Positions 2,483 to 58,916 of a stretch of 64,000 nucleotides of DNA are shown here, piece after piece. The stretch is from Strigamia acuminata (taxonomy: Eukaryota > Arthropoda > Chilopoda > Geophilomorpha > Linotaeniidae). The position numbers were made by a program, and so were the translations under genes. The stretch is taken from NCBI GenBank assembly GCA_949358305.1, contig OX442315.1:10256427-10320426 (forward strand), in the 5' to 3' direction. Within the stretch, counting starts at the first letter, position 1. Each line of letters begins with the position of its first letter. Below the pieces are notes generated by a model. It was given only the letters and a program-made list of their open reading frames with translations. It did not search any database and was not told where the DNA came from.

Positions 2483-2513
<31 letters not shown>

Positions 2514-11960: not shown

Positions 11961-12780
11961 TTATTTTTTGAAACATTTGTTGAGATAAGCGGAAATTTTG
12001 GATATTTGATTCATAAGCGAGAAAAATGATAATCCCAGAAAGAATCCGAGGATAGATCCGACATCGCAGACAAGGTTTTCAAATGGTAGAACCAGTTCCT
12101 CTTTGAATACTTCTCGGAAATTACTTTCCAATTCATAGCGTGTAAGTAGAAGAGATTGATTAATGGATGTTTGGAAAGTTTGATCATATTCCACGTGAGG
12201 AATGTAGAAGGTGTGTTGACAAGGAGGATGACACCCACATTTGGTTTTCAAAAGATCCTTCAAGTAAGACTTGATAACTCGTTTAGCCGAGGTGGAATTG
12301 GTGCAAGAAGGCAATGACGAGTTGTTGATGAATGGTAAACTGACGGAGGTAAACAAAATGAAAACCAACTAAAAATAGAATTTTATTTCTTTAGACCTGC
12401 ATGAAATGTTTTGTCTGTTTTCAAATAGGCAGTCGTTTTCGCATTTTCTAAATTCTTTCTTGTCTACACAAGGTTTTGTTGGTGTTTTCAACCGAGAAAA
12501 CTGGCAATTACATTTAATGTTTGTTTTTTTAATTATAAAGTGAGACTTACAGATTTTCTTGTGAAAAAGACGTGCATCCATGAATTATGTGGATGAATCA
12601 TGTAAGTAGTAAAATCCATTCGATTTTCAGCTGCCATCAAGAAAATCTAAAATTGAAATTTCAAAAACAATTTTGCTTAGGGGCCGTGCAATACCTAACT
12701 CCGGCCCTGATTACTTACTTTAGAGAATGAATTGCAACCTCTATATGGAATATATTGCACGATGCAAACATATCCGGTTG
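11961..12780 (-). pseudogene. DEG/ENaC pseudogene I, 3' half (exons 8-11, second channel domain)
   Basis: Exons 12780-12719, 12646-12551, 12500-12397 and 12339-11961 have exactly the lengths (62, 96, 104, 379) and phases of exons 8-11 of gene C. They read open through the second ectodomain (CGCHPPC, Cys-rich region) and TM2 (VCDVGSILGFFLGLSFF) to a stop at 11961. This half looks intact. It is called a pseudogene because the 5' half (25730-27834) is broken and element 1 (12.9 kb) sits in intron 7, four bases upstream of the exon 8 acceptor. A truncated or alternatively started transcript cannot be excluded. Confidence 0.8.
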
Positions 12781-12784
12781 CTAC

Positions 12785-12788
12785 ATTG
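12785..12788. repeat. target-site duplication of element 1, left (ATTG)
   Basis: ATTG directly before the TGTCGCG start of the LTR; the same ATTG follows the element at 25657-25660. Gene C has a single ATTG at the matching spot (49486-49489). Confidence 0.9.
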
Positions 12789-13608
12789 TGTCGCGTCCTA
12801 CTTGGTATAGGTTTAAATAGCGCTAACGTGTAATACTTTACCTGTGATCAATTATGTAAATACCCAAATGAATACCAAATGTATGTAAATAAACAGGTAA
12901 TTTATTCACCAGGCTTTATGCCTTTAAAATACACTCAGTAATAATTCTAGAGTCGACGTGGTCAGCGTCGAACAAAGGATTTCTCAAGATGGCGTCGTCG
13001 ATTCCGCGTGGTCGGCGGAACAAAGGCGGCGTCTCGAGTTGTCGTTAATTCGTCACGGATTCGTCTTCACGGACGCGGTGGAATGCTCTTTCGAGTCTTC
13101 TATCCGTGCCTGTTGTCTAGGGTTTGTTTAGCGTCGCAGAGGCCTCGTCTAGGAACTTTGGGGTTCCCTACAAAGCACTCGGACACTTACTTCGGCGAAT
13201 AATCGTCTGGGCGATTATTCTGGGTGATTTCACAAGGGCTATTCTCGTGCTTTCGCAGGAATAGCTCGCAAGTGACTTCGTGAGAGTTACAGTTTGCACT
13301 TTACTCAGCGATCCTCGATCAATCCTAACTTGTAGTTGAAGTTGGCCTGACGGTGAGGTAGTTGCTGTGTTCTTGGTGTCGTTTGTGTAAGTTCTGACTT
13401 TAGGCGGGAAACACAGCCTTTTATGCAGTGGGGTGAAGGGCCGGCGATCAACCAATGGGGGCTGACCATCAGCCGCTTCCTCCCCCTCGGGGCACACACC
13501 TGCCATGGGGAGGTGGAGCCAACTCGGGGGGGAACGACTCTTCAATCACAGTGACTCAGAGGACAAGCATCCGCCCTGGGGGGACACTTATCCAACTGGG
13601 TCACCACA
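12789..13608 (-). repeat. 3' LTR of element 1
   Basis: 820 bp, TGTCGCG...TCACCACA on the plus strand. On the minus strand a GCATAAAAGG box (13427-13418) is a likely TATA element. A CAAGATGGCGTC motif (YY1-like) is at 12985-12996. The 125-codon frame at 13168-13545 overlaps the promoter and is not taken as a gene. Confidence 0.93.
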
Positions 13609-13652
13609 CGTCCCTCCTCCAGCTTCGATCTCGGATCGGAGCGATCTCATTT

Positions 13653-16600: not shown

Positions 16601-17118
16601 GCGCTGATCCAACACTACTTTTGAACTCAGGTGATCCGCTTTTTTGGAAGGGGTCGCAGGCAAAACCGATCGTTAAATTTTAATTTCTTACGTTAAACTT
16701 TTTTATTTTAACTCTAATCGTATTTTAATTTATTACGATGTTTAAATTTAAAAGAAAGAAAAACCTTTAGTTTTGGTTTTGGTTTGCCACGACGCCATTC
16801 CGCGAACACTTCCTTTGTTCTAGTTTTTTGGCGGCCTTGACTCCGAGGTGAATCTGGGTCCACTCTCGGGTTTTTAGCCAGCCTTAAATCAACAATAAAA
16901 CAGAAAGAAATATATCAGTCACAAGTCACGCTCCAATCTGGGTTGGATGCAACAGATTCAAAGAATTATGTGATTTCTCTGGGGAAATCACACTAATTTA
17001 CCTGCAACGGCGGTTGTTCGTCCCAATTCTCATCTTCTTCTGCATTTACGATTAGGCCGTCGCTCTCGTCTCTCGACGATGCGCTCGGCTCTAATCGTGG
17101 GTTGCGTCGATCGGCCAT
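13653..17118 (-). CDS. Third gene of element 1: two-exon protein of unknown function, about 967 aa
   Basis: Exon 1 is 17118-17002 (39 codons, ATG GCC GAT..., acidic and polar, ending PPLQ). The donor is CAG|GTAAATT, and an in-frame TAG follows directly, so splicing is needed. The acceptor ATTATTCAG precedes exon 2, 16439-13653, phase 0, first residue V. The protein has an N-terminal globular part with PPANFTATQSEMWQLYHAG, a long Arg/Ser-rich disordered stretch, a second globular part and a Pro-rich tail. No signal peptide or membrane helix is visible, so it does not look like an envelope. Element 2 has a related protein with a phase-0 intron at the same place. Homologous blocks are the ATQSEMWQLYHAGI/KTQTEMHQLHMAGV motif and a C-terminal YPFLQ/YPLLK block. 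Function unknown. Confidence 0.8.
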
Positions 17119-17498
17119 TTCAATTTAGGAAAATGAAGTTTTGTTTGAGAGGTCTTTGTCTTTCTCTTTGGGGGAGAAGCAAAAACACGTCTCGTCGTGT
17201 TAAAAACAGTCGGAAACTGGGCCTATCGACGCTGAGAATTGTGGGTCTCGAACGCGTCTCGTATTTTGCGAGATCCGCCGTGCTGGCAATGACGCTACGG
17301 GGTCGACCGCGTGGTTTCGTTGTCACGTGGTCGCCCGCTACGTCATAACTTCTCGTCTGTTAGTGGTGACTGCGACAATTCGTTGCGAAGTTTGGACTTA
17401 GCCAAATTTTCGCGTCTCAACATGTGCAGCAGCTCTCGTAAGTAAATCTTTTTATTTTACAAGGCCTCCGCTCCATGTTATCACATTTTCTTTTATTT
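17119..17498 (-). promoter_or_regulatory. possible internal promoter/leader of the third gene of element 1
   Basis: 380 bases between the pol stop and the third-gene ATG. The minus strand has an A/T-rich TAAAATAAAAAG about 340 bases before the ATG and a CACGTG box. It is analogous in position to the clear TATA box of element 2, but weaker. Confidence 0.35.
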
Positions 17499-20400
17499 TT
17501 AGTTCTTCCCCACGACTTTGCCGTCCCGAATGAACGGATTATTGCTTCGTCGTGGTCGAAGGTTGATTTTCGACGTGCTCGTAGATCGTGACTCTACTTG
17601 CTCGTTCATCTCCGATGTGTTGGCATTTTTCTCATTACTAATTTTTTTATTTTCCATTTCAGAAGTACTCTCTTCTGCTTCCTCCCTCTCCGAAATTGCT
17701 TGCTCCGGCTGTGCTGGAGCCTCGTCGGCCGGAGATTCGGCGTCGAAGAATTCATCCTCGTCCTCCGCTATATTTTCAGCTTCATTTGTTTTTTGGAACG
17801 TGTCGACCACGGTGCCCCCTTGGCCGCTGTGTGTCTGACCTTCCAGCCAGATTTCTTGGGGAAACTCTGGCAGATATGGCCTTAAATCTCGGCCATGTAT
17901 CGACTGAAAATTTTTGTTGTCCTCTAAGCGGCGTAGTTGGTATGCGTTGCCGCCGTGTTCGGCCACAATTACATAGGGACCGTCCCTCTTGTCGGCTAAA
18001 CCTGCGGCGATGCCCCTCGCTGCATTGGACAACGTGTGTGCCTCCTTCCACACTAGATCATTCACTTTAAAGTTCGCGAAAGCGAGATCGCCTTCTTTAT
18101 CTGCGATTCTTTCTCTCATGTTGAAAATATGCGCCATCATATGCTGGTATGTGTCGGATATAGTCTGTTCCAACCGGCACACGTACTCGTGTGGGCTCGA
18201 TGGGTCTAATACGTTAACAGCTTCGGCAACGCGTGGGTCCCATGGCATCCTTAATTCGCGGGCGAAGTTGAGGTACGCCGGTGAGAATTCGCGTGTTCTT
18301 GACACGGTTGAGCGAATGCTGAAAGCGATTTCTCGCAGGTATTCGTCCCATCGATTGTGAATATCGGTGAATACTGTCAGCGCATATTTTATGTCTTTAT
18401 TTAATCTCTCGACTGGGTTTGTCTGAGGATTATACGTGGAGGTGTTTGATGCATCCATTTTAAATTTTCTACAGAAGTCCTTATATATTCTCGATCGGAA
18501 TTGGGGGCCGTTATCCGAAATGAGTTTTCTGGGAAACCCAAATCGCATTGCCACGTCGTAAAGGCACTCGACTATGTTTTCAGCCGAGGGCTTCGCGAGG
18601 GCGTACAGCTCCGGCCATCGGGTGGCCACGTCCATAATTACGAGAATATACATGTTCTTGTTTCCCGTTGTGGGCTTGGGGCCCATCAAGTCTATGCTTA
18701 AGCAGTCAAACGGTGCGTAGGGTCCGAGAGACATGGCGTTTCTGGCCACTTTATCTCGCGGTCTGCACGCTTGGCACCGGGGGCAGTGTCGGATAAATTT
18801 CGTTATCTTTTGCCGCGCGCCCGGCCAGAAGAAAAGTTGTTTTACTCGATAAAGGGTCCTCGCCACGCCAGAATGGCTGGCGAGCGGGTGTCCGTGCATC
18901 AGCCACAACAGTCGGGTGTGCAGCGATGCCGGCACGACCACTTTAACCGAGTTTCCCGCTCCGCTGAGGTCATCTTGAAACGTCGGGTGGTATTTTACCA
19001 GGAGTTCATCATCTATGAGGTAGCTTGTTGCTTCTTTGACGAACTGTTTCCGGCGGTGTGGGTTTGTCATCCCTTCCGGAAATTCGCCGTTCAGCAAATA
19101 TTGCGTTATAATTTGACATTTTGTGTCTGCTGCCTGGTGTTCGACGAATTCACGTCTCGTGGGTGGAGCGTATTGTGTTTTTTCTTCAATTTTTGCTGTG
19201 AAGGCGCGTAGTAGTGTTTTGTGGGTTTCTCCGGGGGGCGGAGATTGAATTTCGGATGTTGAATCGTTCGTCCCAGCTGGCTGGTATGTTCGAGTCCAAA
19301 AACCACAAAACGTTCTATCTTCAGGCTCCATCACTGGTAGCTCGTTCGCCTTTCGCAAACGCCATATTCTCCGTGGAGTCGGGCAGTACAAGAGGTGGGT
19401 GTCGTCCTCGCCGTCGTCGTCTGGTCCCTGGGGGTCAGAGGCTGGGGCTCTCGAGAGGGCGTCGGCCACATGATTGTACTTCCCGGGGCGGTACGTAATT
19501 GTTATATCGCACGCCATTAACTCCAGTTGCCATCGTGCGAGTCGGCCGGAGGGTTCCTTGAGCTTCATCAACCAGCTTAGTGCCTGGTGATCTGTCTGAA
19601 CCTCGAAGTTCGTGTACTCCAGATAGTCGCGAAATTTCCGAACTGCCCAAATTACGGCTAGGCATTCTAGTTCCGTTGCCGTATAATTTTTCTCCGCGCC
19701 CTGTATTTTTCTGCTTATAAACATACAGGGTACTTCTTGCGAGATTCCGTTGTACACGTGGGTCTGCAGAAGGGCTGCACCCAGTCCGATTTTACTCGCG
19801 TCGGTGTGCAACACGAACGGTCGGTTTAGGTCCGGCAATGGCATCTTTTCGACGTCAGCCAGCATTTGCTTGATAGTGCTAAATGCGGCCTCGCACTGGA
19901 CCGTCCACTCAAACTCTTTATCCGTTCGTAAGAGATCCGTTATAGGCGCGGCCACTTCAGCCAGACCAGAGAGTAGTCGGCCGAAGAAATTGACCATGCC
20001 CATGAATCTCTGGACACCTTTTATATCTTCGGGGGCGGGGAATCCGTTTATTGCTTTGACTTTTTCGGGGTCAATCGCGATTCCCTCGACTCCTATTCGA
20101 TATCCTAGGAAGGCAAGCTCTTTCCTGCAAAACTTGCTCTTCCCTGGATGGATGTGGAGTCCTGCCTTGGCTAGGCGAGAGACCACTCTATCGATGTGGT
20201 CTATATGTTCTTCGAATGTGTCCGACGTTATTATGATGTCGTCGAGATACGCCCACACGAAGTCGTGCAGCATATCTCCCAACACGCTTTCGATCAGTTT
20301 CTGGAACGTGCTCGGGGCGTTTACAAGCCCGAACGGCATCACGTTGAACATTAGTCTTCCTATCGGGGAGTAGAAAGCCGTTTTCAGTTTGTCTTCGGGT

Positions 20401-21635
20401 TTTAGCTCCACTTGCCAATACCCCTTTGACAGGTCCATGGTGGTTACCCACTTGAACGGGCTCAGTTCCCGGAGGATCGAGTCTATAGACGGCATCTGAA
20501 TCGGGTCTATAACCGTTATCGCGTTCAGGGGGCGATAATCAATGCATAGTCGAGGTTCCGAGCCTGGACGCATCACCAGGACGATCCGCATGGCGTATTC
20601 GCCCAGGGCTTGCGTTACTATGCCCTTGTCGAGCATGTCTTGGCACATTTGCGTCACGATGTCTCTTTTCTGGGGGTTCATCCCCTTGTAAGGCACTCGA
20701 ATCGGCTTGTCTGTGGTTAAGACTATTTCGTGTGTTGCTTCCGTCGTTCGACCAGGTGTCTTGGTCAGAATTCTTTCATGCTTTCGAAGCACTCGCCTTA
20801 GTAGCGATGCCTCGTTAACACGCAGTGCTGCCTCCTCGACCAGGGTGTCCACGACGTTACTCCTCTGTAATTCCAGAGTGAAGGCTGCGAAATCGTAATC
20901 TTGGACGAATTTTCGCAATCCTCGTCCGTATTCCTCTTTGTCCTTGGCTTCGTCCAGTAATTTTTGGGGAACTACGGGGACTGACCGTTCTCCCTCGGGA
21001 CTTATCCAGTTCCATGAACGGGTTATCGGGTTTGGCTGAATTTTCAGTTTCGCCATGATGTCCATCCCTAGGAGGAATACTTTGTCGTGGGATGGCAAGA
21101 CTATGAAGGGGTGGGACAGGTTCCCCCCCGTCCAGTCGATCATGATGCGAACTACGCCCTTCGGCTTGACGTAGCCGTTGGCGGTGAGCAATTCTACGTT
21201 CGCGTTCACTTGTGCCACCTTCTTTCCAATATCCAAGTCTTTTACTATATCTTCGGATATGAATGAACGATCCGCTCCTGAATCCAGTAGACCGAACAAT
21301 TTTTGGTTTTCTATCTCCACTGGCAGCATACACAGAGTTTCGCAATGTGCTTTCGTGACATTGCAGTGAAATACGCGTAATGTCTGGGGCTCAGCCTCCA
21401 GATTGAACGGAAGGTCCGTCCAATCCATGTCGACCTCCGGTTTCGTTCTCACTTGCATACTCGTTAACGTCACTTTTTCCTCCTTCTTCGGAACGATCTG
21501 TATGCGGTCTTTGATCTGTGCCTCTGCCAAGGCATGACCTGCGGGTCCAGTGTGATATTTCTTCTTTTTAATTTCCGCGGCTGGCGCAGACGAAGCTGAA
21601 TTTATTTCGGCGACGCCTGCGCTTGGAAGTTTTTT
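17499..21635 (-). CDS. Pol of element 1 (protease, reverse transcriptase, RNase H, integrase), expressed by -1 frameshift
   Basis: The pol frame is open without an ATG from the slippery heptamer at 21635 down to the stop at 17499. Order: aspartic protease with LLDSGAD; reverse transcriptase with FGLVNAPSTFQ and AYLDDIIIT; RNase H with LHTDASKIGLGAALL; integrase with HHCC (HGHPLASHSG ... CPRCQAC) and DDE (LSIDLMG, SDNGPQF, NPVERLN); then a GPY/F-like module (DGPYVIV). A Glu/Ser-rich acidic tail follows. A likely start of independent translation was looked for and not found; the overlap with gag in the -1 frame points to a Gag-Pol fusion. All catalytic motifs look intact. Confidence 0.93.
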   Translation of the reverse strand, partial: KKLPSAGVAEINSASSAPAAEIKKKKYHTGPAGHALAEAQIKDRIQIVPKKEEKVTLTSMQVRTKPEVDMDWTDLPFNLEAEPQTLRVFHCNVTKAHCETLCMLPVEIENQKLFGLLDSGADRSFISEDIVKDLDIGKKVAQVNANVELLTANGYVKPKGVVRIMIDWTGGNLSHPFIVLPSHDKVFLLGMDIMAKLKIQPNPITRSWNWISPEGERSVPVVPQKLLDEAKDKEEYGRGLRKFVQDYDFAAFTLELQRSNVVDTLVEEAALRVNEASLLRRVLRKHERILTKTPGRTTEATHEIVLTTDKPIRVPYKGMNPQKRDIVTQMCQDMLDKGIVTQALGEYAMRIVLVMRPGSEPRLCIDYRPLNAITVIDPIQMPSIDSILRELSPFKWVTTMDLSKGYWQVELKPEDKLKTAFYSPIGRLMFNVMPFGLVNAPSTFQKLIESVLGDMLHDFVWAYLDDIIITSDTFEEHIDHIDRVVSRLAKAGLHIHPGKSKFCRKELAFLGYRIGVEGIAIDPEKVKAINGFPAPEDIKGVQRFMGMVNFFGRLLSGLAEVAAPITDLLRTDKEFEWTVQCEAAFSTIKQMLADVEKMPLPDLNRPFVLHTDASKIGLGAALLQTHVYNGISQEVPCMFISRKIQGAEKNYTATELECLAVIWAVRKFRDYLEYTNFEVQTDHQALSWLMKLKEPSGRLARWQLELMACDITITYRPGKYNHVADALSRAPASDPQGPDDDGEDDTHLLYCPTPRRIWRLRKANELPVMEPEDRTFCGFWTRTYQPAGTNDSTSEIQSPPPGETHKTLLRAFTAKIEEKTQYAPPTRREFVEHQAADTKCQIITQYLLNGEFPEGMTNPHRRKQFVKEATSYLIDDELLVKYHPTFQDDLSGAGNSVKVVVPASLHTRLLWLMHGHPLASHSGVARTLYRVKQLFFWPGARQKITKFIRHCPRCQACRPRDKVARNAMSLGPYAPFDCLSIDLMGPKPTTGNKNMYILVIMDVATRWPELYALAKPSAENIVECLYDVAMRFGFPRKLISDNGPQFRSRIYKDFCRKFKMDASNTSTYNPQTNPVERLNKDIKYALTVFTDIHNRWDEYLREIAFSIRSTVSRTREFSPAYLNFARELRMPWDPRVAEAVNVLDPSSPHEYVCRLEQTISDTYQHMMAHIFNMRERIADKEGDLAFANFKVNDLVWKEAHTLSNAARGIAAGLADKRDGPYVIVAEHGGNAYQLRRLEDNKNFQSIHGRDLRPYLPEFPQEIWLEGQTHSGQGGTVVDTFQKTNEAENIAEDEDEFFDAESPADEAPAQPEQAISEREEAEESTSEMENKKISNEKNANTSEMNEQVESRSTSTSKINLRPRRSNNPFIRDGKVVGKN
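21584..21635 (-). promoter_or_regulatory. -1 ribosomal frameshift signal of element 1
   Basis: Heptamer A AAA AAC at 21635-21629 in the gag frame (codons GCA AAA AAC). A 6-base spacer follows, then arms GCGCAGGCG (21622-21614) and CGTCTGCGC (21592-21584) that pair over nine positions with one G-U. The gag stop (TAA) lies in the loop. Shifting back one base enters the pol frame, which is open from here. Confidence 0.85.
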
Positions 21636-24600
21636 GCCAGATCAGTTCTTAACTCCATCATCATTTTCATCATGGTTTGCATGATGTCCTTTTCTTTGAC
21701 GGTTTTCTCACATTTATCTGAGTAGTGGCCGTATTCTCCACAGCTGTAACATTTGATGTTACTTTTATCCCCTGTGGGAGTGAATCCCGGTTTTTTCGGG
21801 ACGAAGGGCGTCGGGAATCGTCTTTTTCCTCCCAATGCTCCTCTCGCTTTTGTTGCTTGCAGGTGTGCTCTGAATTGTGTGATTGCCAAGGCCCGGTGTG
21901 CATGGTGCAAATAGGGACCTTGATCGTCGCATCCCGTCGATAAGTTTTCGAGGTGCTCATTTAGGGCTTCCTCGTCGCTCGATGCTGGCTCCTCTTCTTT
22001 AGCCGTGGCGAGAGGTGTTGTCTCTTCGACTTTCTCCATCTGGGTGGAGTCCGTCGAGGTCACCTGCATCGCCGTCGCTGCCGGTGCTTTCTTTGGGGCA
22101 GCTATCGGGTTGGCTGGAAGAATACTGCCTGCTTTAGGCGTCAGCATTCGTCCGAAGGATGCTTCGGTGAGACTCATTATGCCGCTCAAATATTCACTTG
22201 GCCTCATTAATTTTTCTGAGGTCTTGTGGCGTTCGGCGCTCGTCTGCAACCGCTTCTCGTGCGCGTCAGCTTCTTCCGGGGGCAGAGTGGCGTAATACCG
22301 CTGTTCTATTTCTAACGTGTTTGTTAGAAGATAGTTACTGACATCTTGGTAATCGCCAGTGCGGGGTGCACGCATGTCTAGCAGAATTCTTTGCGAGTGG
22401 GCCGATAATCCTCCGTAAAAGATCATCGTAAAACCAGCGGGGTTTATTTCGTACGGCGCTCTTGCAAACAGGAGTTTCGCTCGGGCGTCGTAGTCGGCTA
22501 ATGTTTCTCCTGGGGCTTGTCGTAGACCCCGTAATTTGTTACTGATCTCGTCTGGAGTCTCGCCGTATCGGAGATCGAAACGGACGAGAAAATCGTCCCA
22601 GGTTGGGTTTTTCAGTCCCTGGTACCATTCTCGAGCTGACCCCGTAGTTAGCTCCACTAGCCCGTGGGTTAGCATGTCGGCGACGGTGGCTTTTGTCGCT
22701 TTCTTGATACGCATTACTTCGTCCAGGAAGCGGTCTCCGGCCTTCCACGAACCGTCAAATCGCGTTTGAATATAGTGTTGCCAGCGGATGTTACCCGTGG
22801 CTTCACTGCTTGGTTCGTTTCGTACGCCATATTTGCGCTTAACCCTCTCTCCAGCGCGATTATGTTCGTCGCCTGGATGGCCTAGATCGATTCCTTCTCT
22901 TCTGAAAGAGTTCAGCAGGGCTCGGCCTAGCTCAGACATCGTGTAATGTCGGCCAGATGAGTCCTGAAAGTTCCCTTCCTCTGAACGAGGGTTGGAGCTC
23001 CGGGAAGAGCGGTCTGAAGCATTCGGCCGGTTCGACCGGTGCCCATCGCTGCCTTCTTGACTCCTTCCTGTAGACGGTCGACTCGGATGGTCGTCGTCCG
23101 ACGAATCGGAGGGCTCGGAGGGATCTCCTTGGGGGTGAAACCTCGGCCCTCTCGGTGGGGTCTCTCCGCCAGCCTTCTTCTGTTTCGAGCCTTCGGATGG
23201 CGGCGGCTCCCCTCCGTCGTTGTTCTCGCAAAAAGAATGCCATCTGTTTTCCTCGCTCTCGGGGCGTTCCCGATTTTTATTTGCGTTTTTCTTTTCGAGT
23301 AACGCGTCGATGGCTGCTCCCGTCTCGGATCTTTTTGAGGGGTGACGGTCCTTTGTTTTTGGGACCGATCCGTCTCTCTTTTGAGATTTCCCCCTTTTTG
23401 CCGTTTTTGCCGGCTTTGCTGCATCTTCTCCTGTGTCGGTATCAGAGCCGCTTGGGGGTTCTGACTTCCGTTTCGGGTTTTCTTCCCTTTTCTTCCTGCC
23501 CGAGACACCTTGTTCGTACTCTTTTTGGAACTTTTCTGTTTCTTTCTCCCAGTTTTCGGCTTCCCATCTTTTTTGCTCATCTATTATGGCTTGTTTCTTT
23601 GCTTTGTACTCTTCGGTCCATCTGACTCGGTCCCATTCCTCTTTCTCTTTCAGGAACTGTTCCTTTTCTTTTCTGGCTTCCTCTTCTCTCAACCTCTCGC
23701 GATGTTGTTCTTCCCATTTTTGGTGTTGTAAAATGGCTTCTTCTCGCAGCATTTGTAGCTTTTCTGCTTTTCTTTGAGCTACGAGCGCTTGAAATTGGTC
23801 CTCGTACTCTTGAGCTTCTCGATGTCGCCCTTCCACCGTGGCGTTCCATTCTTTTCGAATTTTAGCTTCTCGTTCCTCCCTCATTTTTTGGACCAGTTTT
23901 TCTGTTCTCTCGGTGGTTCTTCTTTCGCGTTGCTCCCTTTCTTCCTCTTCCTTCCAGAGTTCTCGCCGCTCTGCGCTCAGTCTTCGTTGGCGATTAGTCG
24001 CTTCTTGTCTGGCTTCTTCGCGGGCCTTCTCTCTGGATTGGTGAAGTGCCCGGTTGGGGTCTGGCGCGAAACCTCCGGTGTCACTGGGCGTTACCTGGGG
24101 CATGGGCGTCTCCGCTGCTGGTCTTGCGACCGGCGTCGGGGCTTGTGCCGCGCAGATAGCGTCAGTGAGTAGAGTAATCGATTCCCAGACTGACGTTCCT
24201 ACTGGAATGTCTATCATCGCTTTCAGTTGGGCAGCTTGCCGTGTCAACCGAATTAGGTGAGATACCTCGAAGGAAACAACCGCAGGACTCGCCGTAACTC
24301 GGGGGGTTATCGGGGTCCCGCCGTCGTTTTTTCGTGGGGTTTGCTCCACGGACGTCTGAGCCGTGGGTGGCGATGGGTTCGTGCCGACCGTGACCGTTAT
24401 TTTCGGAGCTTCATTCGTCTCCTCGGTCATCAATATCGATACTCGTCCTGGCGATACGTCGCGAATTTCTTCTCGATTTTCTATGGCTTCCGGATCGGTA
24501 TCCTCGAAGGGTTGCATATTCAAGGGAACCCGCTCTCGCTCTGGCCCGTCTAGGGCCGCGAGCGATGCAGCTTGCTCCTCTTTCTGCGCCTTCGCTCTCC

Positions 24601-24742
24601 TTTTATTCGCTCGGGCTTTCGCCTTTGCGGACATTTCAGGGACGGGACCATCCGATCTCAGGTGGTAGTCGGAGGTCCTTTTTCCCTTCTCGGGCATTCT
24701 CTGCTCGGTTTCAGACGTGGATTGCTCGTCTTTGTCTGACAT
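21602..24742 (-). CDS. Gag of element 1 (1046 aa)
   Basis: ATG at 24742, about 95 bases inside the 5' LTR. The first 230 residues are polar and disordered. A long, highly charged Glu/Arg/Lys region follows (about 230-430), likely coiled coil. Next come a Ser/Pro-rich stretch, a capsid-like region with FDGSWKAGDRFLDEV (FDGNWHAGTQFLEE in element 2), and one zinc knuckle near the C-terminus (CYSCGEYGHYSDKC). Gag forms the particle and binds the element RNA. It is about twice as long as a usual Gypsy gag because of the N-terminal coiled coil. It ends in the frameshift signal. Confidence 0.9.
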   Translation of the reverse strand: MSDKDEQSTSETEQRMPEKGKRTSDYHLRSDGPVPEMSAKAKARANKRRAKAQKEEQAASLAALDGPERERVPLNMQPFEDTDPEAIENREEIRDVSPGRVSILMTEETNEAPKITVTVGTNPSPPTAQTSVEQTPRKNDGGTPITPRVTASPAVVSFEVSHLIRLTRQAAQLKAMIDIPVGTSVWESITLLTDAICAAQAPTPVARPAAETPMPQVTPSDTGGFAPDPNRALHQSREKAREEARQEATNRQRRLSAERRELWKEEEEREQRERRTTERTEKLVQKMREEREAKIRKEWNATVEGRHREAQEYEDQFQALVAQRKAEKLQMLREEAILQHQKWEEQHRERLREEEARKEKEQFLKEKEEWDRVRWTEEYKAKKQAIIDEQKRWEAENWEKETEKFQKEYEQGVSGRKKREENPKRKSEPPSGSDTDTGEDAAKPAKTAKRGKSQKRDGSVPKTKDRHPSKRSETGAAIDALLEKKNANKNRERPESEENRWHSFCENNDGGEPPPSEGSKQKKAGGETPPRGPRFHPQGDPSEPSDSSDDDHPSRPSTGRSQEGSDGHRSNRPNASDRSSRSSNPRSEEGNFQDSSGRHYTMSELGRALLNSFRREGIDLGHPGDEHNRAGERVKRKYGVRNEPSSEATGNIRWQHYIQTRFDGSWKAGDRFLDEVMRIKKATKATVADMLTHGLVELTTGSAREWYQGLKNPTWDDFLVRFDLRYGETPDEISNKLRGLRQAPGETLADYDARAKLLFARAPYEINPAGFTMIFYGGLSAHSQRILLDMRAPRTGDYQDVSNYLLTNTLEIEQRYYATLPPEEADAHEKRLQTSAERHKTSEKLMRPSEYLSGIMSLTEASFGRMLTPKAGSILPANPIAAPKKAPAATAMQVTSTDSTQMEKVEETTPLATAKEEEPASSDEEALNEHLENLSTGCDDQGPYLHHAHRALAITQFRAHLQATKARGALGGKRRFPTPFVPKKPGFTPTGDKSNIKCYSCGEYGHYSDKCEKTVKEKDIMQTMMKMMMELRTDLAKNFQAQASPK

Positions 24743-24816
24743 TTTCTTTCGGTAATTCTACGATTTGGGTTATCTTATTGAGAGATCACAAGTTCAGATT
24801 TGAGATTTATTTCTAA

Positions 24817-24834
24817 ATCCCGGACAGGCCCCCA
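24817..24834 (-). promoter_or_regulatory. primer-binding site of element 1, tRNA-Pro-like
   Basis: TGGGGGCCTGTCCGGGAT, two bases from the 5' LTR. It differs at two positions from the tRNA-Pro site known from murine leukaemia virus (compared from memory), so a proline tRNA primer is likely but not proven. Confidence 0.7.
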
Positions 24835-24836
24835 CG

Positions 24837-25656
24837 TGTCGCGTCCTACTTGGTATAGGTTTAAATAGCGCTAACGTGTAATACTTTACCTGTGATCAAT
24901 TATGTAAATACCCAAATGAATACCAAATGTATGTAAATAAACAGGTAATTTATTCACCAGGCTTTATGCCTTTAAAATACACTCAGTAATAATTCTAGAG
25001 TCGACGTGGTCAGCGTCGAACAAAGGATTTCTCAAGATGGCGTCGTCGATTCCGCGTGGTCGGCGGAACAAAGGCGGCGTCTCGAGTTGTCGTTAATTCG
25101 TCACGGATTCGTCTTCACGGACGCGGTGGAATGCTCTTTCGAGTCTTCTATCCGTGCCTGTTGTCTAGGGTTTGTTTAGCGTCGCAGAGGCCTCGTCTAG
25201 GAACTTTGGGGTTCCCTACAAAGCACTCGGACACTTACTTCGGCGAATAATCGTCTGGGCGATTATTCTGGGTGATTTCACAAGGGCTATTCTCGTGCTT
25301 TCGCAGGAATAGCTCGCAAGTGACTTCGTGAGAGTTACAGTTTGCACTTTACTCAGCGATCCTCGATCAATCCTAACTTGTAGTTGAAGTTGGCCTGACG
25401 GTGAGGTAGTTGCTGTGTTCTTGGTGTCGTTTGTGTAAGTTCTGACTTTAGGCGGGAAACACAGCCTTTTATGCAGTGGGGTGAAGGGCCGGCGATCAAC
25501 CAATGGGGGCTGACCATCAGCCGCTTCCTCCCCCTCGGGGCACACACCTGCCATGGGGAGGTGGAGCCAACTCGGGGGGGAACGACTCTTCAATCACAGT
25601 GACTCAGAGGACAAGCATCCGCCCTGGGGGGACACTTATCCAACTGGGTCACCACA
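24837..25656 (-). repeat. 5' LTR of element 1
   Basis: 820 bp, appears identical to 12789-13608. The TATA-like box is at 25475-25466, the YY1-like motif at 25033-25044. Confidence 0.93.
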
Positions 25657-25660
25657 ATTG
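25657..25660. repeat. target-site duplication of element 1, right (ATTG)
   Basis: Second copy of ATTG. Host sequence TATTGCACCTCACC continues as in gene C at 49490. Confidence 0.9.
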
Positions 25661-25729
25661 TATTGCACCTCACCTATGGTGATATTGTATTACTACTTTA
25701 TTAGAAAAATGCAATTTAGTCAATTTTAC

Positions 25730-27834
25730 CATATTTCACTTGAGTGCACTTTCCAAATATAGTCGAAATAGGCGTTTTCGTTCCATCCTCTTTATTTACA
25801 AACGAGGCATCCAGCTCGACATTTTTCTGAATTAGAAAACAAAATTATGTTCAAATTTGACAGAGCCACAACTTTACGAAGTAGCGTAACGTACCAATTC
25901 CATAAAACTGCCGATGTTAGACGAGGCTTCCCACAAACCATTTGCATCGCCAGCAAATTCCGATGGTGGGTCGAGTGTATTAAACTAAAAACAGCATAAA
26001 ACTGTATTTTATAAATGAAAAAAAAACAAAAACATTTTATTATAAAATGCAATTAAAATGATTTTAAAAAAAAACTTTTTCTGATGTTAGTACAGTCTAT
26101 AGTTAGGACTCCTAACTATAGACTGTACTAACATCAGAAAAAGTAACTTAGGAGTAATGAGAGTAAGGCCAATGGAAGAAAGGCCAACCTTGTAGTGACT
26201 CAGAGTAGGTAAGAAAACTTCTTGGCTTTACTCGACGGCTTTGCTAATTTTGGGATGGTTATATTTACTTGCAAAGAGGCTTGATGTCAGTTGATATAAA
26301 TTTTTCGAAACATGAGTGATGGCATTCTTGCTCTTCACTTTCTTCCACACAAGGAATCGATGTCCTGTTCAGAAATTTGTACTGAAATGACAGTTACTTT
26401 GTCTCATCTGGTTGCAACGTGTAAAAAGTTGAAGTAACTTACTCGCTTAATTGAGAATAATAATTCAGAATTCTTCACAATGGATGAGACACGCAGCATA
26501 GGGGAAGCAATAAACCTATTCTTTTTATTCTTTGCTTGTAAGTAGATCTTTTAGAGTTTAGCAATACAATGAGAAATTAGACAATCGAATTTGGTTCATT
26601 CCCATCTGACAGCAGAATTTTAATTCGTTATGGGATGTCAAATTAATAAGAGATTTTATTTTAAACAAGAATCCATCGATATTTTAAGTATTATATCTAC
26701 AAAGTGGATACCTTAACCCGAACAAATAACTGGACCCTCACTCTAGACTGGCAATTGAAATTGTGAGTAATTTCGTGTTTTGCCACAAGGTGAAACGCCA
26801 GACATCAACAGGTTATAATACTTGTATAATTAGGGTATACAAGTATTATCACCTTCTGGACTCGGACGGTTTTTATGACCACGACTGTACAATGACTGCG
26901 TGTAAAAATAAATGGTTTCTCAGCTCAACCAAGAAACGAAATAAAATTCTGCGTAGTCTTAATAAATTGCCATACCACTACATATCCTAAAATGGTACGC
27001 TCGAGAGGAGTTTTTATTGCACTTAGATCAAGCGAATTATACTTAATAGCGATTTTTGCTTGGTAATCAGCGGGTATTTTTCCTTCTGACAGTTAAGTAA
27101 TTATTGTTTTTGTTTTAGAGTTTTCTAAATAATACTTACCGGTTGTTACTAGCACTTGACTCCCTATAAAAAAGTTCATTTCATCAATAACTACTCTGCT
27201 CTGAGTATCATCCCAAGTTCCTTTAGAGTCCTGCAATGAATTATTGCCAATGCAAGTCCAGATTATGTTAGAACTCATAGGCTTACCCTGGCACAAGATA
27301 TGGTGATGTTTCTTATCAACGGGCTTATTCTTCTACTATTCCATTCTGAACTAATGTTTCTTTTTTCATCCATATAAAAATGTGGACTGGTGCCTCTGCA
27401 TTCACTAGCTGTTTTAAAAAAGAGAATTGTAAAGGTATCACTTTGTTGTAGACTTTTTTTTTGCTAATACTGTATTTACTTTCAAGAGATGTATCTTTTA
27501 TTGATTGATGCATTAAAGCACTTTCTAGAGTACTGAAACTAAAGATACCGATAGATATCCCTAGAAAGTCGTCATTTTCGTTGATAACTGCAGAAACTTT
27601 GACCGGTGATGAAGCGTAGTATTTGATCCGGTCAAATTACTGGTAGAAGCACACTGACACCACTAACGCAATTATTAGGTGCCAAATTACAGAGTAAAAT
27701 TGAGTACATTTGGTTTTGCGGATTTGAGGAAATTGCGGGAGTAAATTAGGAATTTTAAATTTCGTTTCTATGTATTCCGAGACGATTTTTTTCATTTTTT
27801 GCACATATCTGTGATGGCTGACTATAGGCGCCAT
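25730..27834 (-). pseudogene. DEG/ENaC pseudogene I, 5' half (exons 1-7, broken)
   Basis: Paralogue of gene C. Exon 1 (27834 to about 27600) has the N-terminus and TM1 (SVIWHLIIALVVSVCFYQ), then an in-frame TAA where gene C reads TWDRIKYY. Exon 2 (about 27430-27310) and exon 3 (about 27240-27000) are recognisable, exon 3 with a frame break. Exons 4 (about 26530-26446) and 5 (about 26370-26258) still read well (CHHSCFEKF). Exon 6, which in gene C carries TM2 of domain 1 and TM1 of domain 2, is reduced to its last 90 or so bases (25985-25895). A 71-base palindrome (26074-26144) lies between exon 5 and this remnant. Exon 7 (25826-25730) is intact. Nonsense codon, lost exon and element 1 together make a normal channel impossible. 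Confidence 0.85.
26074..26144. repeat. perfect 35-bp inverted repeat with a 1-base centre
   Basis: Arms 26074-26108 and 26110-26144 are exact reverse complements (ACTTTTTCTGATGTTAGTAC... on the left) around a single C. It lies where exon 6 of pseudogene I has been lost. Confidence 0.95.
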
Positions 27835-31610: not shown

Positions 31611-31612
31611 CT

Positions 31613-31630: not shown

Positions 31631-31709
31631 AACTAAAAATTGTTAATTTTAACGGGACTCTCGACTTTCTTACTGTTTCTGTCTTGCACCTTTTTATTGT
31701 AAAAAAAAA

Positions 31710-42340: not shown

Positions 42341-42386
42341 AGGAAAAGAAGAAGTGGTTCCGCTTCTCCCCTAAAAAGGAGGGAAG

Positions 42387-46630: not shown

Positions 46631-46649
46631 CCACCGTTAATACACGCAC

Positions 46650-48535: not shown

Positions 48536-51500
48536 TCATTTTTTATAACGTTTGCTGAAAAAAGTGGAAATGTTGGAAATTTGATTCAAAAGTGAGAAAA
48601 AAGATAATCCCAGAAAGATTCCGAGAATAGATCCGATATCGCAAACAAGCTTTTCAAATGATAGAACCAGTTCCTCTTTAAACACTTCTCGGAAATTACT
48701 TTCCAATTCATAACGTGCAAATAAAATAGATCGAGCAATGAATGATTGGAATGTCTGGTCATATTCCACTTGAGGAATGTAGGTGGTCTGTTGACACGGA
48801 GGATGACACCCACATGTGGTTTTCAAAACAATTTTAAGGTAAGATTTCGTAACTTGTTTAGCCGAAGAGGAATCGTTGCATGAAGGCAACGACGAATTGG
48901 TTATGAATGGCAAACTGATGGTGATAAACAAAATGAACAACATAATTCAAAAAATGTATACATATACAGTATATAATTGTACCTGCAAGTTATGTTTAGT
49001 CCCTCTTCCTTTCGACAGTCGTCCTCACATTTCCTAAATTCTTCCATGTTTACACAAGGTTTTGTTGGCGTGTTCAGCCGTGAAAACTGAAAATTTTATT
49101 TACTTTAATAGTGTGAATTCAAACGATTAACATATTGATTCATACAAAGCTGATTTAATGCTTAAATATAAGCTAACGTAACATATACCAACCTCCTGTA
49201 GCACCATTAAGGAAGACTAGAGAACTCGTATTTGGTTTATAAAGTGAAACTTACAGATTGTCTTGTGAAAATGGCGTGGATCCAAGAATTATGCGGGTGA
49301 ATCATGTAAGTAGTAAAATCCATTCGACTTTCAGCAGTCATTAAGAAAATCTAAAATTGAAAAAGAAATAAAAATAAAAATAATACTGCACAGCAGGGTA
49401 AAACGAATAATCGATTTACTTTAGAATGTGAGTCACAACCTCTCTCTTGAATCGCTTGCACGATAAAAACATATCCACTTGCTACATTGTATTGAACCTC
49501 ATCTAAGGTGATATTGTATTACTAGTTTATTATAAATATATAATTCTAGTTAATTTTACCATATTTGACTTTAGTGCAAATTCCAAATATTGTTGAAACG
49601 GACGTTTTCTTTGCTTTATTCTTGTTTACAAAAGATAAATCCACTCCTGTTTCACTCTGCATTAGAAAACATATTATATTTAAAGTTATATCTCGTCAGA
49701 AAACATAACTTGCTGTTCTTTATAAAGGAACGTACCATTTCCAAAAAACTGTCGAAGTTAGACGAGGCTTCCCACAAACCATCTGCATCGCCAGCAAATT
49801 TAAATGGTGGGTCGAGTAATTCGGCAATGCTCAATTTGTCAACACAATTTTCTTTCAAACTGTTGTTTTTAATTACTTTTTCTTTTTCATCAATCACAGC
49901 ATCACCCTCGTTGCAAATAAGTAATGTTGGCATTTGAACAGACCGATCTTCCTCTACTTCAATTATGGTGTAGACAGGAAACGAGTAAAATGACATTATA
50001 TGACTGCTCACTTGATAACAGCAGACACAGACACATACAACCAGAATTATTCCTTTGATGTATGATTGAAAGTTGATTACATTTGACAATGCGTATTCAT
50101 TTTGTCTGACTACAATGTTATTCATACATTTGTAAATTTTCTTTTCGAAACTACTTTTCCGTTTCCGGGACATGGCTATCTTCTTATACTGCTTTTGTGC
50201 TTTGCGAATGATGACTTCGACTAAACCCAAACACGAAACTCCGATGTACAAGCCAATGAAGCCTCCAGTGTCACACAGCAGAGCGATGATGTCGTAACAG
50301 AATTGCTCGGACAAAGTGAGTCTGTGACTGCTGAATGAAGAAACTGTCAAAGTGTTGTCGACGACATTATCGAAATGTTGATGAGCAATTATCATAATTC
50401 TATTGCATGCTCTGGCACAACTGCAATTATAATGCGGATTGATGATTTTAATTTTTTCGTGAATTTTTTGCATGTCCGAGCACGTTTGGTTATTTGCAAA
50501 GCATTCTTCAAGATCTAAGTCAGGCATGTAAGGCAACCTGAAAGGATTTTATTGAATATTACGCAGTAAATGTTTATTTTTTGAATAAACAAGTCGTTAT
50601 CTATCCATCCACACAACAATCTCATAATCATACTTCGGTGCAACTGCAAACTCACTAATTATATTTACTTGCAAACAGGTTTCATGTCAGTAGATATAAT
50701 ATTTTTGAAACATGAGTGATGGCATTCTAGCTCTTCATGTTCATCTACGCAAGGACTATTTTTTCTGTTCAGGAATTTGTACTGAAACCACAAGTGAAGT
50801 TTTTTTCTTTTTTAATCTGGATATAATGTGTAAAAACTAGAAGTAACTTACTCTCTTAATTGTGAATAATAATTCAGAATGTTTCTCAACAGATGAGAAG
50901 CGCACCATAGCATTGCCAACATATCTATTCTTTTTATTCTTTGCTTGTAAGTAGACCTTTTACCATTAAAAAATTAAAAAATTAAAAAATTAAAAAATTA
51001 AAAAATTAAAAAATTAAAAAATTAAAAAATTAAAAAATTAAAAAATTAAAAAATCTAATTTTGTTCATTCTTATCTGATAGCAGAATTTTAATTCATTGT
51101 TGTAGCCTTTATATAGTGGTCATACCCCTGGTGTTTTTTCTTTAAAGGTACTATTTATTTATTTAAAAATTAGACAAGCCATAAGTTAACAACATTTATT
51201 TGCAAATGTTGTATAATTTGGTTAACATAGAAATTAATAAGAGATGGTTTCCAGAAACAGAAATAGAAAAATTACTGGCAATTGCAAAGGGGAACAGTTT
51301 TTACTCTGCCGCATCGTAGAACTATGTGAGATGACGAGTTAGTTTTGTTTATTTATATGAGGTTGTGGATGTGACCACTTGGCCACCTAAGTGAGACCTG
51401 CATCATTACCATACACTGCCCAATGAACCCGAGGTCACCCCTTTTCACGGGGTGGGATGACCCAGTACGGGACGGGGGGGGGGGGCTGAGTTGTGTATGT

Positions 51501-53599
51501 AAAAACTGTCGTTTAAAAGATATTGTAAAAGAGGGGTATTGGAAGTGATGCCATGTTTGGTCGCCAGGGGTCACTCAGATGACCCACTATGTAAATAGGT
51601 CAGGTTAATTTTGATGTGAAAAAGGGAAAATAGCGGATTAGCATGTTGGATTGAAGTCCTGAAGCCAGCAAGAACAGTTGTGCTCTGTGCTGACTCAGCT
51701 CTCCTCCCTATTCACCATTGTGACGCTTAGTGGTGAGATGTTGGATCCATGAGCGGTTGCATGGGCTGTACAAGGGAATACGGCAGAATAGTTATGTTTA
51801 ACCGGCGACGTCAATCGTGGGGATCCCTCCCTATGTGTGACGGGTTGCTTGCAAGTGTGGCTTGCCTTTGCGGCACTGCCAACATGCAGGTAGACGGGAG
51901 ACTCCATTCTCTCGACAACGATTAACGAAAAACGTCGTTAAAATGTCTTCGCGGTCCAGGTTTTGACCTTCCGCAGTCCGGATACGGACTGCGGTCCGCC
52001 TGTTTCCAACCGCTGCCCAACAACTCAACAATCTGTAGTCTTTGTGTGACTGGTATGGTCTTTGCCAGTGCAATCAGGGGACTGAAGACACTGGTTTGGG
52101 ACGCATACTCACGTAAATAACGAGAACTGTCGTTTTAGGTGCCACGAATTCACGCCGCACCGGCAACCGACCCGTCACACACTGGGCGTGAGCCCAATGG
52201 GTGACGTAGTCGGTTCGACTAAACATTCGTGTCGTACTCACCTACGACCCGCATATCCACTCATGGAGGCTGCGCTATGGAATCCGCCATAGCACTGAGT
52301 ATCAACGTGGTGAATGGTGAGGAGTACAGAGTCCAACGTGGGACACGTCCTGTCCATCTGATGAATACCTTCTCTTCCTCTGGAGCAATTCAACACACGT
52401 CCTTCTCAGTCCATGTCCAGTGCTACTCTCTCTCCTCTACACCACTCCTCTCCTCACCACACCACTCCATTCCCTCCTCCCCGGGCTGGGTCAATCCCCC
52501 ACAAAGGGGATGACCTTTGGGGCCGTATGGTGGTGTGTGGCAGTGCCGTAGGTCACTCAGGTAACCTAGCAGTCACACTTGTCTTCTTTCATGTGAGTAT
52601 GCGTCCCACCTTGTGGTAACCAGTCCCCAGGCTGCCATGGATAAGACCATTACCGGAGCTGTGAGTGTGGCGTTAATAAAATAAAATTCTGCGTAGTCAT
52701 GATACTATACCACTACAAATCGTAATATGATCTTATCTCTTTCGGTTGTTATTAAACTTAGATCAAGCTTGTTATACATAATGATCAGTTTTGCTTGGCA
52801 ATCAACGGGTATTTTTCCTTCTAATAATTCAGCAATCAGAAATTCCATGAAAACTAATTGTATGGTTTTTGTTTTAGAGTTTTCTAAATGATACTTACCG
52901 GTTGCTGCTTGCATTTTACTTCCTAGGGAATAGTTTATTTCATCAAGAACTACGTTGCTCTGAATATTGTCACAAATTCCTTTAGACCTCTGCAATGAAT
53001 TATTGTCAATATACAAGTTCAGGTTGTATTAAAACTCATTATAGGTTTACCTTGGTATAAGATATGCTTGTGTTTCTTATTAATGATCTAATGCTTCTCA
53101 AACTCCATACTGAACTCATGTTTCTTTTTTCATCTATGTAGAAAATTGGAATGGTTTTATCGCATATAACAGCTGTTTAGAAAAAAAATGACTTTAAAGG
53201 AATCACTTACGCTTAAAATTTTTTTTGGTAATATTTACCGTTCGGATATTCAGCTTTTATTGATTGAGACAGTAAGGTACTTTCCATAGTACCAAAACTA
53301 GTGATACCGATGTCTATTCCTGGAAAGTCCTCGTTTTCGTTGATAATGGCAGCAACTTTGACCGGAGATGAAGCATAGTATTTAATCCGGTCCCATGTCT
53401 GGTAGATGCACACTGACACGACCAACACGGTGATTAAATGCCAAATCACGGAATAAAAATGACGAAATTTGCTGTTGCGGATTTGAGGAAATCGAGGGAG
53501 TAAATGGGGAACTTCGAAGTCCATTTCTAAATATTCCGAGATCATTTTCTTCATTTTTCGCACATATTGGCGATGTCTGATTCCAGCAGGTACCATCAT
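48536..53599 (-). CDS. DEG/ENaC channel gene C with two tandem channel domains (11 coding exons)
   Basis: Exons: 53599-53239, 53172-53051, 52989-52711, 50938-50852, 50781-50669, 50537-49736, 49656-49560, 49481-49420, 49350-49255, 49086-48983, 48914-48536; about 833 residues with no frame break. Domain 1: TM1 about 47-67 (SVIWHLITVLVVSVCIYQ), ectodomain with several Cys pairs, TM2 about 401-427 with GLYIGVS. Linker about 428-478, Lys/Arg-rich. Domain 2: TM1 about 479-500, ectodomain, TM2 about 795-818 with GIFLGLS. Exon 6 alone holds TM2 of domain 1, the linker and TM1 of domain 2. The introns after exon 5 and exon 10 both lie in phase 2 at the Cys just before LP(Y/F). The start is uncertain: adjacent ATGs at 53599 and 53596, and the frame is open a little upstream to a possible acceptor at about 53656. 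It is the closest intact relative of pseudogenes I and III. A membrane cation channel by family; stimulus unknown. Confidence 0.85.
50957..51053. repeat. 8-bp tandem repeat ATTAAAAA
   Basis: About twelve near-perfect copies of ATTAAAAA in intron 3 of gene C. Confidence 0.95.
51054..52705 (-). other. intron 3 of gene C (part), built of repeats R1 and R2
   Basis: Bases 51103-51600 contain R2 pieces inverted relative to 28160-28870, and a 10-base G run near 51475. Bases 51735-52110 are an R1 copy (CCATGAGCGGTTGCATGGG, TACGGCAGAAT, TCTCGACAACGATTA). Bases 52580-52680 are a second R1 tail in opposite orientation (GTGAGTATGCGTCCCACCTT). The short frames across it are not genes. Confidence 0.6.
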
Positions 53600-57030: not shown

Positions 57031-58916
57031 TGGTGCCTGGAATCAGACACAGCATGTACGGTATGTGCGAAAATTGAAAGAAATGGTGAATGTTTATATG
57101 CAAATGACTTGGAAGTACCCCATTTATTTCATCGATTCCCTCAAATTTTCAACAACTAATTTCGTCATTTTTATTCCGTGATTTGGAATTTAATTACTGC
57201 GTTAGTCGTGTCAGTGTGCATCTACAAGACATTTGACCGGATCAAATACTACGTCTCCTCACCGGTCAAACTTTCCGCCGTCATAGACGAAAACGAGGAC
57301 TTTCCAGGAATAGATATCGGTATCAGTAGTTTTGGTACAATGGAAAGTACCTTACTGTCTCAATCAATAAAAGCTGCATATCCTGTCGTGCTCTTCTCTC
57401 TCTCTCGCTAATACGTGGTATGAGTCACTTACAATCTCACAATACCGCTTTGCTCAAGCGGTTACCCAAAAGAATGTACACGGCAAACAATATAAAAGGT
57501 AAATATAATAAATGTATTTATTATACGGGAATGTACAGGTAAAAGGGAATAAAATATGTAAGGGAATAAAAAGGTAAAAGGTAAGGTGTGTGAAGTCGGC
57601 GGGAAACTGGTCGAGGTCGTCCTTTGTTGCTCTGAATCCAAGATGGCGTCCGCGTGGCAACGTGGTGTCGTCTTGGGCCGGCGTGGCAATATATGGCGTC
57701 CTCGTCTCACGTTCCTGGTCGGTCCTTCAGGCTCACGCTGGTCGGCCGCGAGTGAATGCCTAAAAGGTCTTACTTCGGCTGTTGTCTAGGTTTAGGGTTT
57801 TGTTTAGGTGTCCGGCGATCACACAGCGGCGGACGCTTGGTGGTTCCCGGCGATACACACAGCGGCGGGAACGCTCGTCGTGGTTACTGCAGTTTAGGCT
57901 TGTGCGACCGTTTGTCTGCACAACTCGCTAAACTGGAGTAGGTTTACTATTTCTAGCTGGCTTGCTAAAATAGTGTGGTAATCTTATTTCGCAGGTTACT
58001 CTGCGGAGGTTAACACTAATCAAACGTACTCACGGCAATTTGAATCCTTTGTCCCTGGTCACTCCTAGTTCTTTGACTTAGGCCTGATCGGTAGGACGAT
58101 AGATTTTGCGTGTGTTTCTTGCTTGATGTTTGTGTTGGTTCTGCCCGCTCAGTGCAAGGCACATTCCTTTGCACAAAGCGGGGGTGACAGGTGACTAAAG
58201 CCACCCAATGGTGGAAAAGACGAATCTCCCCCACTCCCCCAGGGCAGACGCCCGTCCATTGACTAGATGTCAATGCTCTGAGGGAAAGGAGGCGCGCGTA
58301 CGACTCCCCCTTCTCTACCCGTAAGTAGGCCACGAGAGAAACTCTTCGTGCCCCACCCCAGTCGGGTCACCACAATCCGAACGGTAAATATTACCAAAAC
58401 AATTTTAAGCGTAGCGATTCCTCTAAGGTTATTTTTTTCTAAACAGCTGTTAAATGCAATAAAGCCATTCCAACGTTCTACATGGATGAAAAAAGAGACA
58501 GTGTGGAGTTTGAGAAGCATTAGATCATTAATAAGAAACACAAGCATATCTTACACCAAGGTAAACCTATATTGAGTTTTAACACAATAATTCATTGCAG
58601 GGGTCTAAAAGAATTTGTGACAATATTCAGAGCAACGTACTTCTGGAAGAAATAAACTATACTCTAGGAAGTAAAATGCAAGCAACAACCAGTACGTACC
58701 AATTTGAAAATTCTAAAACAAAAACCATACAAATAATTTTCATGAAATTTCTGATTGCTGAATTATTAGAGGGAAAAAATACCGGTTGATTGTCAAGCAA
58801 AACTGATCATTATGTGTAACAAGCTTGATCTAAGTTTAATAACAAACGAAAATGATAAGATGGTTTTAGGATTTGTAGTGGTATGGTATCATGATTATTC
58901 AGAATTTTATTTCATT
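57031..58916 (+). pseudogene. DEG/ENaC pseudogene III (exons 1-3, inverted copy of gene C)
   Basis: Plus-strand, diverged copy of the 5' part of gene C. Exon 1 starts near 57031 with a frame-broken N-terminus. It reads clearly over TM1 (SVIWNLITALVVSVCIYK) and the following ectodomain to 57383, where a solo LTR interrupts it. The last exon bases GAACG and the donor GTAAATATT come behind the LTR at 58379. Exon 2 (about 58447-58560) has a small deletion that shifts the frame, exon 3 starts at about 58603. A second solo LTR (58921) follows. The rest of the gene is absent. Confidence 0.85.
57384..58374. mobile_element. solo LTR (991 bp), family 3, with ATCC target duplication
   Basis: TGTCGTGCTC...GGTCACCACA between ATCC copies 57380-57383 and 58375-58378, inside exon 1 of pseudogene III. 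It contains ATATAAAAGG at about 57489 and CAAGATGGCGTC at 57639-57650. The LTR start at 63436 is the same family. Confidence 0.85.

Follow-up and report, generated by a model that had tools for sequence, protein, structure and literature searches.

How can a channel family that builds its pores from three subunits make use of a chain that carries two subunits at once? DEG/ENaC channels are regarded as trimers of one-domain subunits, and the solved structures of ASIC and ENaC are trimeric. The question is raised by a locus of the geophilomorph centipede Strigamia acuminata, which lies in a stretch of 64,000 nucleotides (assembly GCA_949358305.1, contig OX442315.1, positions 10,256,427 to 10,320,426 of the forward strand) that we refer to as the window and in which all coordinates are counted. 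A gene in this window, designated gene C (48536..53599, minus strand), very probably encodes a natural tandem DEG/ENaC channel subunit, a degree of confidence that applies to the chain and excludes its assembly. The observations are that both domains lie in one frame, that paralogues and a congener carry the same arrangement, that the linker between the domains is under selection, that trees prefer one fusion, and that the second transmembrane helices (TM2) of the two domains differ in a gate residue. A first-pass annotation of the window had argued that two domains per chain cannot give one clean trimer from identical chains without a leftover domain. For a single pore the argument is sound; three identical chains could, however, make two complete trimers and so need not leave a domain over.

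Gene C was spliced by eye from its open frames, and the model was then checked with a script. The model comprises 12 exons (53596-53239, 53172-53051, 52989-52899, 52820-52711, 50956-50852, 50781-50669, 50537-49736, 49656-49560, 49502-49420, 49350-49255, 49086-48983, and 48914-48536) and encodes 819 residues, or 820 if translation begins at the upstream of two adjacent ATGs, at 53599. All 11 introns are bounded by GT and AG with consistent phases, and the sole stop is the terminal codon. The first-pass annotation had located a DEG/ENaC gene at 48536-53599; the model places it on the minus strand and bears out its in-frame splicing and its two domains. Its counts of 11 exons and about 833 residues need revision, and the 802-base exon that it numbered 6 is exon 7. 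Intron 4 contains an array of AAAAATT-type units at 50966-51055, next to other inserted sequence.

Hydropathy analysis of the gene C protein revealed the order of first transmembrane helix (TM1), large ectodomain, and TM2 twice over. TM1 of domain 1 spans residues 47-65 (53402..53458). Exon 7 (49736..50537), which lies in a single open frame of 298 codons, runs from the last part of the domain 1 ectodomain through TM2, the linker, and TM1 of domain 2 into the beginning of the domain 2 ectodomain. The TM2 encoded here (50207..50269; hydrophobic from about residue 390 to 413) carries the motif D-T-G-G (389-392) and the filter G-V-S (399-401). It is followed by a linker of 48 residues (411-458; 50063..50206) with 13 lysines or arginines, 2 acidic residues, and a net charge of +11, and by TM1 of domain 2 (459-484; 49985..50062; hydrophobic at 463-481). 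TM2 of domain 2 (783-801; 48593..48649) is encoded in exon 12, and carries D-I-G-S (786-789) and the filter G-L-S (796-798); a short tail separates it from the stop. The four membrane helices, the two G-x-S motifs, and the basic linker flanked by TM2 and TM1 in one exon are thus as first described, except that the linker had been put at about 50 residues. The whole protein matches Pfam ASC with 88.3 bits (E 7.8e-25); scored separately, domain 1 reaches 37.3 bits and domain 2 63.1 bits, both above the curated cut-off of 23.6. As cut, the halves measure 421 and 398 residues, which is the size of compact centipede channels (about 420-430). With two domains in one open reading frame, gene C departs from the one domain per chain of classical ASIC and ENaC subunits.

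Chance might leave about 48 codons open in a single gene; it does not account for an open linker at hundreds of loci. To its 5′ and 3′ sides and within it, the linker region was compared in gene C and nine close copies that are 69-75% identical to C in exon 7. The ratio of nonsynonymous to synonymous substitution rates (Ka/Ks), computed over pairs that are not independent, is 0.40 for the linker (95% range 0.24-0.63 by column resampling) and 0.42, 0.42, and 0.50 for its flanks. In these ten copies the coding frame of the linker region contains no stop and each other frame contains 1-7, and gaps among the exons of the close copies are whole codons. Judged by these substitutions, the linker is under purifying selection in the ten near copies. 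Because the coding frame is free of stops in all ten and the arrangement recurs at hundreds of loci, the joint goes beyond chance. An artefact that joins two neighbouring genes was rejected in view of the single exon, the paralogues, and the selection on the linker. Among 37 distinct internal segments, from which TM2 segments under a hydropathy limit and the internal segments of loci L030, L031, and L043 are absent, the linker measures 39-54 residues with a net charge of +4 to +18, and the filter ends in Ser in 36 and in Ala in one.

Searches of the genome of S. acuminata revealed that gene C belongs to a large family. Exon 7 of C yielded 144 matches, of which 143 span TM2 to TM1 and 139 of these are free of stops; three other queries contributed 65 of 69, 136 of 138, and 150 of 150 matches as spanning, and each search scored at most about 150 places. 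With 1 of 144, 4 of 69, and 2 of 138 matches left out and another search with 150 matches not added, the union of the four queries contains at least 372 loci with a TM2-linker-TM1 joint, at least 351 of them with a stop-free spanning match. The figure of 372 is a lower bound and a count of exons, and a spanning match demonstrates the joint rather than a complete gene. To place the exons in order along genes, 11 regions of 7.0-7.4 kb (six chosen, five random) were inspected. Three (L051, L053, and L065) show the complete order of TM1, then TM2 and TM1 in one frame, then TM2 with a stop; in L051 the first TM1 scores weakly, at 17.8 bits. Six of the 11 have an upstream TM1, and five have a terminal TM2 with a stop. 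At loci L001-L008, the best Pfam matches of the genome, TM2 leads into a short tail that ends in a stop, the pattern of single-domain genes. On the evidence of these searches, the tandem family numbers hundreds of loci, beyond what a view of one gene could show. A three-domain gene, which would supply a clean trimer in one chain, was not found: none of the 11 regions has two TM2-TM1 exons. The closest same-strand pair of such exons among the at least 372 loci is 3.5 kb apart, and the complete two-domain gene of L053 spans about 3 kb.

The arrangement extends to Strigamia maritima. A protein search with gene C returned T1IU34 of this species as the sole hit at an E-value of 1 or less; T1IU34 as query led to T1JBK6 and T1JF11, and gene A, a second two-domain gene of the window, led to T1J963 and two weak hits in Haliotis and Oedothorax. 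In all four S. maritima predicted proteins TM2, linker, and TM1 lie in a single chain; at one end or both, three of the four gene models are plainly incomplete or anomalous. The linkers of S. acuminata L053 and T1J963 are identical at 33 of 50 positions. The earlier reading of two complete domains in one chain is supported by the gene model, the paralogues, the congener's predicted proteins, and the selection on the linker. Predicted proteins with two ASC domains are on record in domain databases; in titles and abstracts of the open-licence literature, we found no description of a natural two-domain DEG/ENaC chain.

Comparison of intron phases provides a view of how the halves arose. In gene C and in gene A alike, the phase series 0,1,0,0,2 holds for the five introns of domain 2 and for the final five of domain 1; domain 1 of gene C has one additional intron. 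Gene A (1201..5901, minus strand; 11 exons, 807 residues) has the same plan as gene C, with a TM2-linker-TM1 exon of 844 bases (3206-2363). Its model contains one GC donor and an uncertain junction between exons 8 and 9, and its weaker exons were positioned with C as a guide, so its phases are not fully independent. By intron structure, the two halves are old duplicates. The simplest history would be a tandem duplication, after which the last exon (TM2) of one copy merged with the first exon (TM1) of the next. In a tree test on 30 TM2-exon sequences, separate fusions in each subfamily were rejected: both sets of trees that keep the halves of a subfamily together failed the approximately unbiased (AU) test (p 0.005 each), and one-fusion trees did not (p 0.16). 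Two rows keep the 30-sequence tree from being clean: L037_d2, which seems truncated and sits on a long branch, and L004_single, which is placed among the rows of domain 1. These trees favour a single old fusion. The TM2-TM1 exon of gene A contains an AAT-type repeat (2470-2535) that gives an Asn run in the domain 2 ectodomain and could be either an in-frame microsatellite or a sign of decay.

The nearest solved structures come from single-domain centipede channels. Domain 1 of C is closest to PDPNaC1 (PDB 9jf7; E 1.7e-12), with a match over the C-terminal part (residues 248-409), and domain 2 to BRTNaC1, broad-range thermal receptor 1 (PDB 8ymx, 8ymr; E 1.9e-17), over most of the domain. BRTNaC1 is also the nearest solved relative of gene A; it has 431 residues and differs from the Strigamia chain in having one domain. 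PDPNaC1 is described as a proton-gated channel of Scolopendra subspinipes mutilans that forms a homotrimer by cryo-electron microscopy (cryo-EM) and is missing the knuckle domain (PMC12714832). With 421 residues it resembles one half of gene C, and the Asp gate and G-x-S filter are common to both; it differs in having one domain per chain and Gly375 at the lower gate, where domain 2 of C has Ser. In the same report, Asp372 and Gly375 form the two constrictions of PDPNaC1 and are set beside Asp433 and Gly436 of chicken ASIC1a (PMC12714832).

In our alignment, Gly375 of PDPNaC1 corresponds to the fourth residue of the D-x-G-G motif. This lower-gate residue is Gly in all 37 internal TM2s and in the seven listed single-domain TM2s, a list drawn up with the same hydropathy limit and without L002. 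It is Ser in each of the 13 terminal TM2s assigned to domain 2, two of them (L042 and the neighbour gene in L051) assigned by similarity. A TGA in the internal TM2 frame of L034 is the sole reason why this locus was counted as terminal, and L019 was left unclassified. Ser also occupies this position in T1JBK6, T1J963, and L065. Because the residue is Gly in each of the 37 internal TM2s and Ser in each of the 13 second-domain TM2s found, the halves are not equivalent. If the two domains hold fixed, different places, that each keeps its own version of the gate would be expected, and the split offers a precise handle for mutagenesis. The residue immediately before the TM2 Asp, the degenerin position, was compared at loci L001-L008 and L009-L048. 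Both domains of C have Cys there, as do the close copies shown, whereas several other loci have Ser or Gly.

We propose that the chain consists of two whole subunits of the compact centipede type, joined by a basic, cytosolic linker of 48 residues, and that the Strigamia family arose by fusion of two neighbouring single-domain genes. With four membrane crossings, the two ends of the chain and the linker would all be cytosolic; both domains would then face the same way and could be neighbours in one trimer. The chain would act as a cation-channel subunit and supply two adjacent, non-equivalent positions of the pore, with a Gly gate from domain 1 and Ser from domain 2. If the two domains of one chain sit side by side in one trimer, the third subunit must come from elsewhere; a single-domain subunit or a domain of a second chain may fill the place. 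We tentatively lean towards such a trimer with a partner, at a likelihood a little short of even. Two-pore channels carry two pore-forming repeats per chain as a result of internal duplication, and two chains complete a four-fold pore. Two-domain chains, in contrast, do not divide evenly into a three-fold pore. ASIC subunits linked in the laboratory carry currents (PMC10329638, PMC4529235), which indicates that a covalent joint is no bar. These concatemers resemble the Strigamia chain in that subunits are joined head to tail through the cytosol; they are laboratory-made, whereas the Strigamia joint is natural, family-wide, and under selection.

Several points weigh against the proposed tandem subunit, for which the evidence is that of sequence. 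One gene end was not found in eight of the 11 regions inspected; the pieces may be too diverged or lie beyond the stretch. The linker Ka/Ks for C against its nine copies alone is weaker (0.61). The best 30-sequence tree matches neither hypothesis exactly, and in a smaller test with 11 sequences, separate fusions were not rejected (p 0.09 and 0.08). In domain 2 of gene A, Asn replaces Ser at the gate and the Asp is lost. A His-Gly (HG) gating motif before TM1 is a feature of classical ASIC and ENaC subunits; it is absent from all four domains of genes C and A examined, which may mean altered gating or a non-conducting domain. Finally, AlphaFold models of T1J963 and T1JBK6, built from 6-row alignments, have mean predicted local distance difference test (pLDDT) scores of 33.9 and 34.6 and are unusable.

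Three tandem chains might instead assemble into a double-barrelled channel with two pores, in which a trimer of domain 1 is linked to a trimer of domain 2. This would use all domains of identical chains and make a partner unnecessary; distinct TM2 types per domain are what two separate homotrimers would have, and PDPNaC1 is itself homotrimeric (PMC12714832). We regard the arrangement as rather unlikely. The length of the linker does not separate one pore from two because 39-54 residues suffice for either. Somewhat less likely still, only one domain would line a pore, with its companion as an appendage for regulation or ligand binding, or the whole chain would be non-conducting. The Ser at the lower gate of domain 2, the missing HG motif in both domains, and the Asp lost from domain 2 of gene A would fit such a spare domain; domain 2 of C nevertheless keeps its Asp and G-x-S filter and exceeds domain 1 in its Pfam score, and Ka/Ks between C and its broken copy B is near 0.5 in each of the two halves. 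Any assembly other than these and the trimer with a partner is improbable.

It is more improbable yet that the locus yields two one-domain proteins through alternative promoters, internal starts, splicing, or polyadenylation within exon 7. Met codons do occur at positions 12 and 28 of the gene C linker. Among the signals that the first-pass annotation had named as able to split the exon, in-frame stops and AATAAA are absent from exon 7 and two ATTAAA hexamers are present. Against two products, the linker is under purifying selection in frame, nine of the 37 distinct linkers contain no Met, the linker of T1IU34 has none, and the sole Met in that of T1JBK6 follows the conserved FEKKV stretch. 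Single-domain genes of the same genome, moreover, do have a stop soon after TM2. Least credible is a four-domain tetramer of two tandem chains, which would leave nothing over and runs counter to the trimeric structures of ASIC and ENaC and to related PDPNaC1, a homotrimer by cryo-EM (PMC12714832).

The window also contains remnants of the family and several retroelements. Gene B (11964..27834, minus strand) is a broken C-like copy with a stop in TM1 of domain 1; only the last 27 codons of its exon 7 remain. Copy D (57050..58886, plus strand) repeats the domain 1 exons of gene C in inverted orientation and is likewise broken. Ka/Ks between C and these copies is 0.49 for B (507 codons) and 0.39 for D (198 codons). 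At the window's edge, an open frame (2..352, minus strand) represents the first exon of a further member, with a TM1 like those of C and A, that runs off the window. Gene B is split by a Ty3/Gypsy-like long terminal repeat (LTR) retrotransposon (12788-25135) with frames on the minus strand; its shown repeat pair of 300 bases is 100% identical, which suggests a recent insertion. Frame 21638-17499 of this element matches reverse transcriptase, RNase H, and integrase, and Pfam has no match for the long frame 16454-13656. Another long LTR element (30452-42686, plus-strand frames) likewise has a 300-base repeat pair with 100% identity, and its frame 35196-39002 matches the same three domains. A compact retroelement (6835-11574) has identical 176-base terminal repeats and a single gag-pol-like frame (11437-7085, minus strand). 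The segment immediately upstream of gene A (5922-6717) is repeated about 56 kb away at 62207-63008 in the same direction with 94-97% identity. Adjacent open frames of 195 and 181 residues (45507-46637, plus strand) have no Pfam match, and the window has no Rfam match at gathering scores.

By analogy with BRTNaC1 and PDPNaC1, which are described as sensory, and given the size of the family, a sensory role is probable. The S. maritima genome paper reports 77 gustatory receptor genes, of which 17 seem to be pseudogenes, and an ionotropic receptor family of 69 genes that includes 15 IGluR genes (PMC4244043); the at least 372 joint loci of S. acuminata stand against these numbers. The same text lists sodium transport among functions enriched in expanded S. 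maritima genes, and a word search of it for ENaC, pickpocket, degenerin, and sodium channel found none (PMC4244043). If sensory, the family could provide a burrowing predator without eyes with its principal set of receptors. With the chances somewhat against it, we suggest that the largest receptor repertoire of geophilomorphs, several hundred genes, may consist of a tandem DEG/ENaC subunit whose unlike domains have fixed places and which needs either a partner chain or two pores. A natural two-domain chain makes the stoichiometry of DEG/ENaC channels directly testable in a native protein, and tandem assembly, if true, would break the rule that DEG/ENaC trimers are built from one-domain chains.

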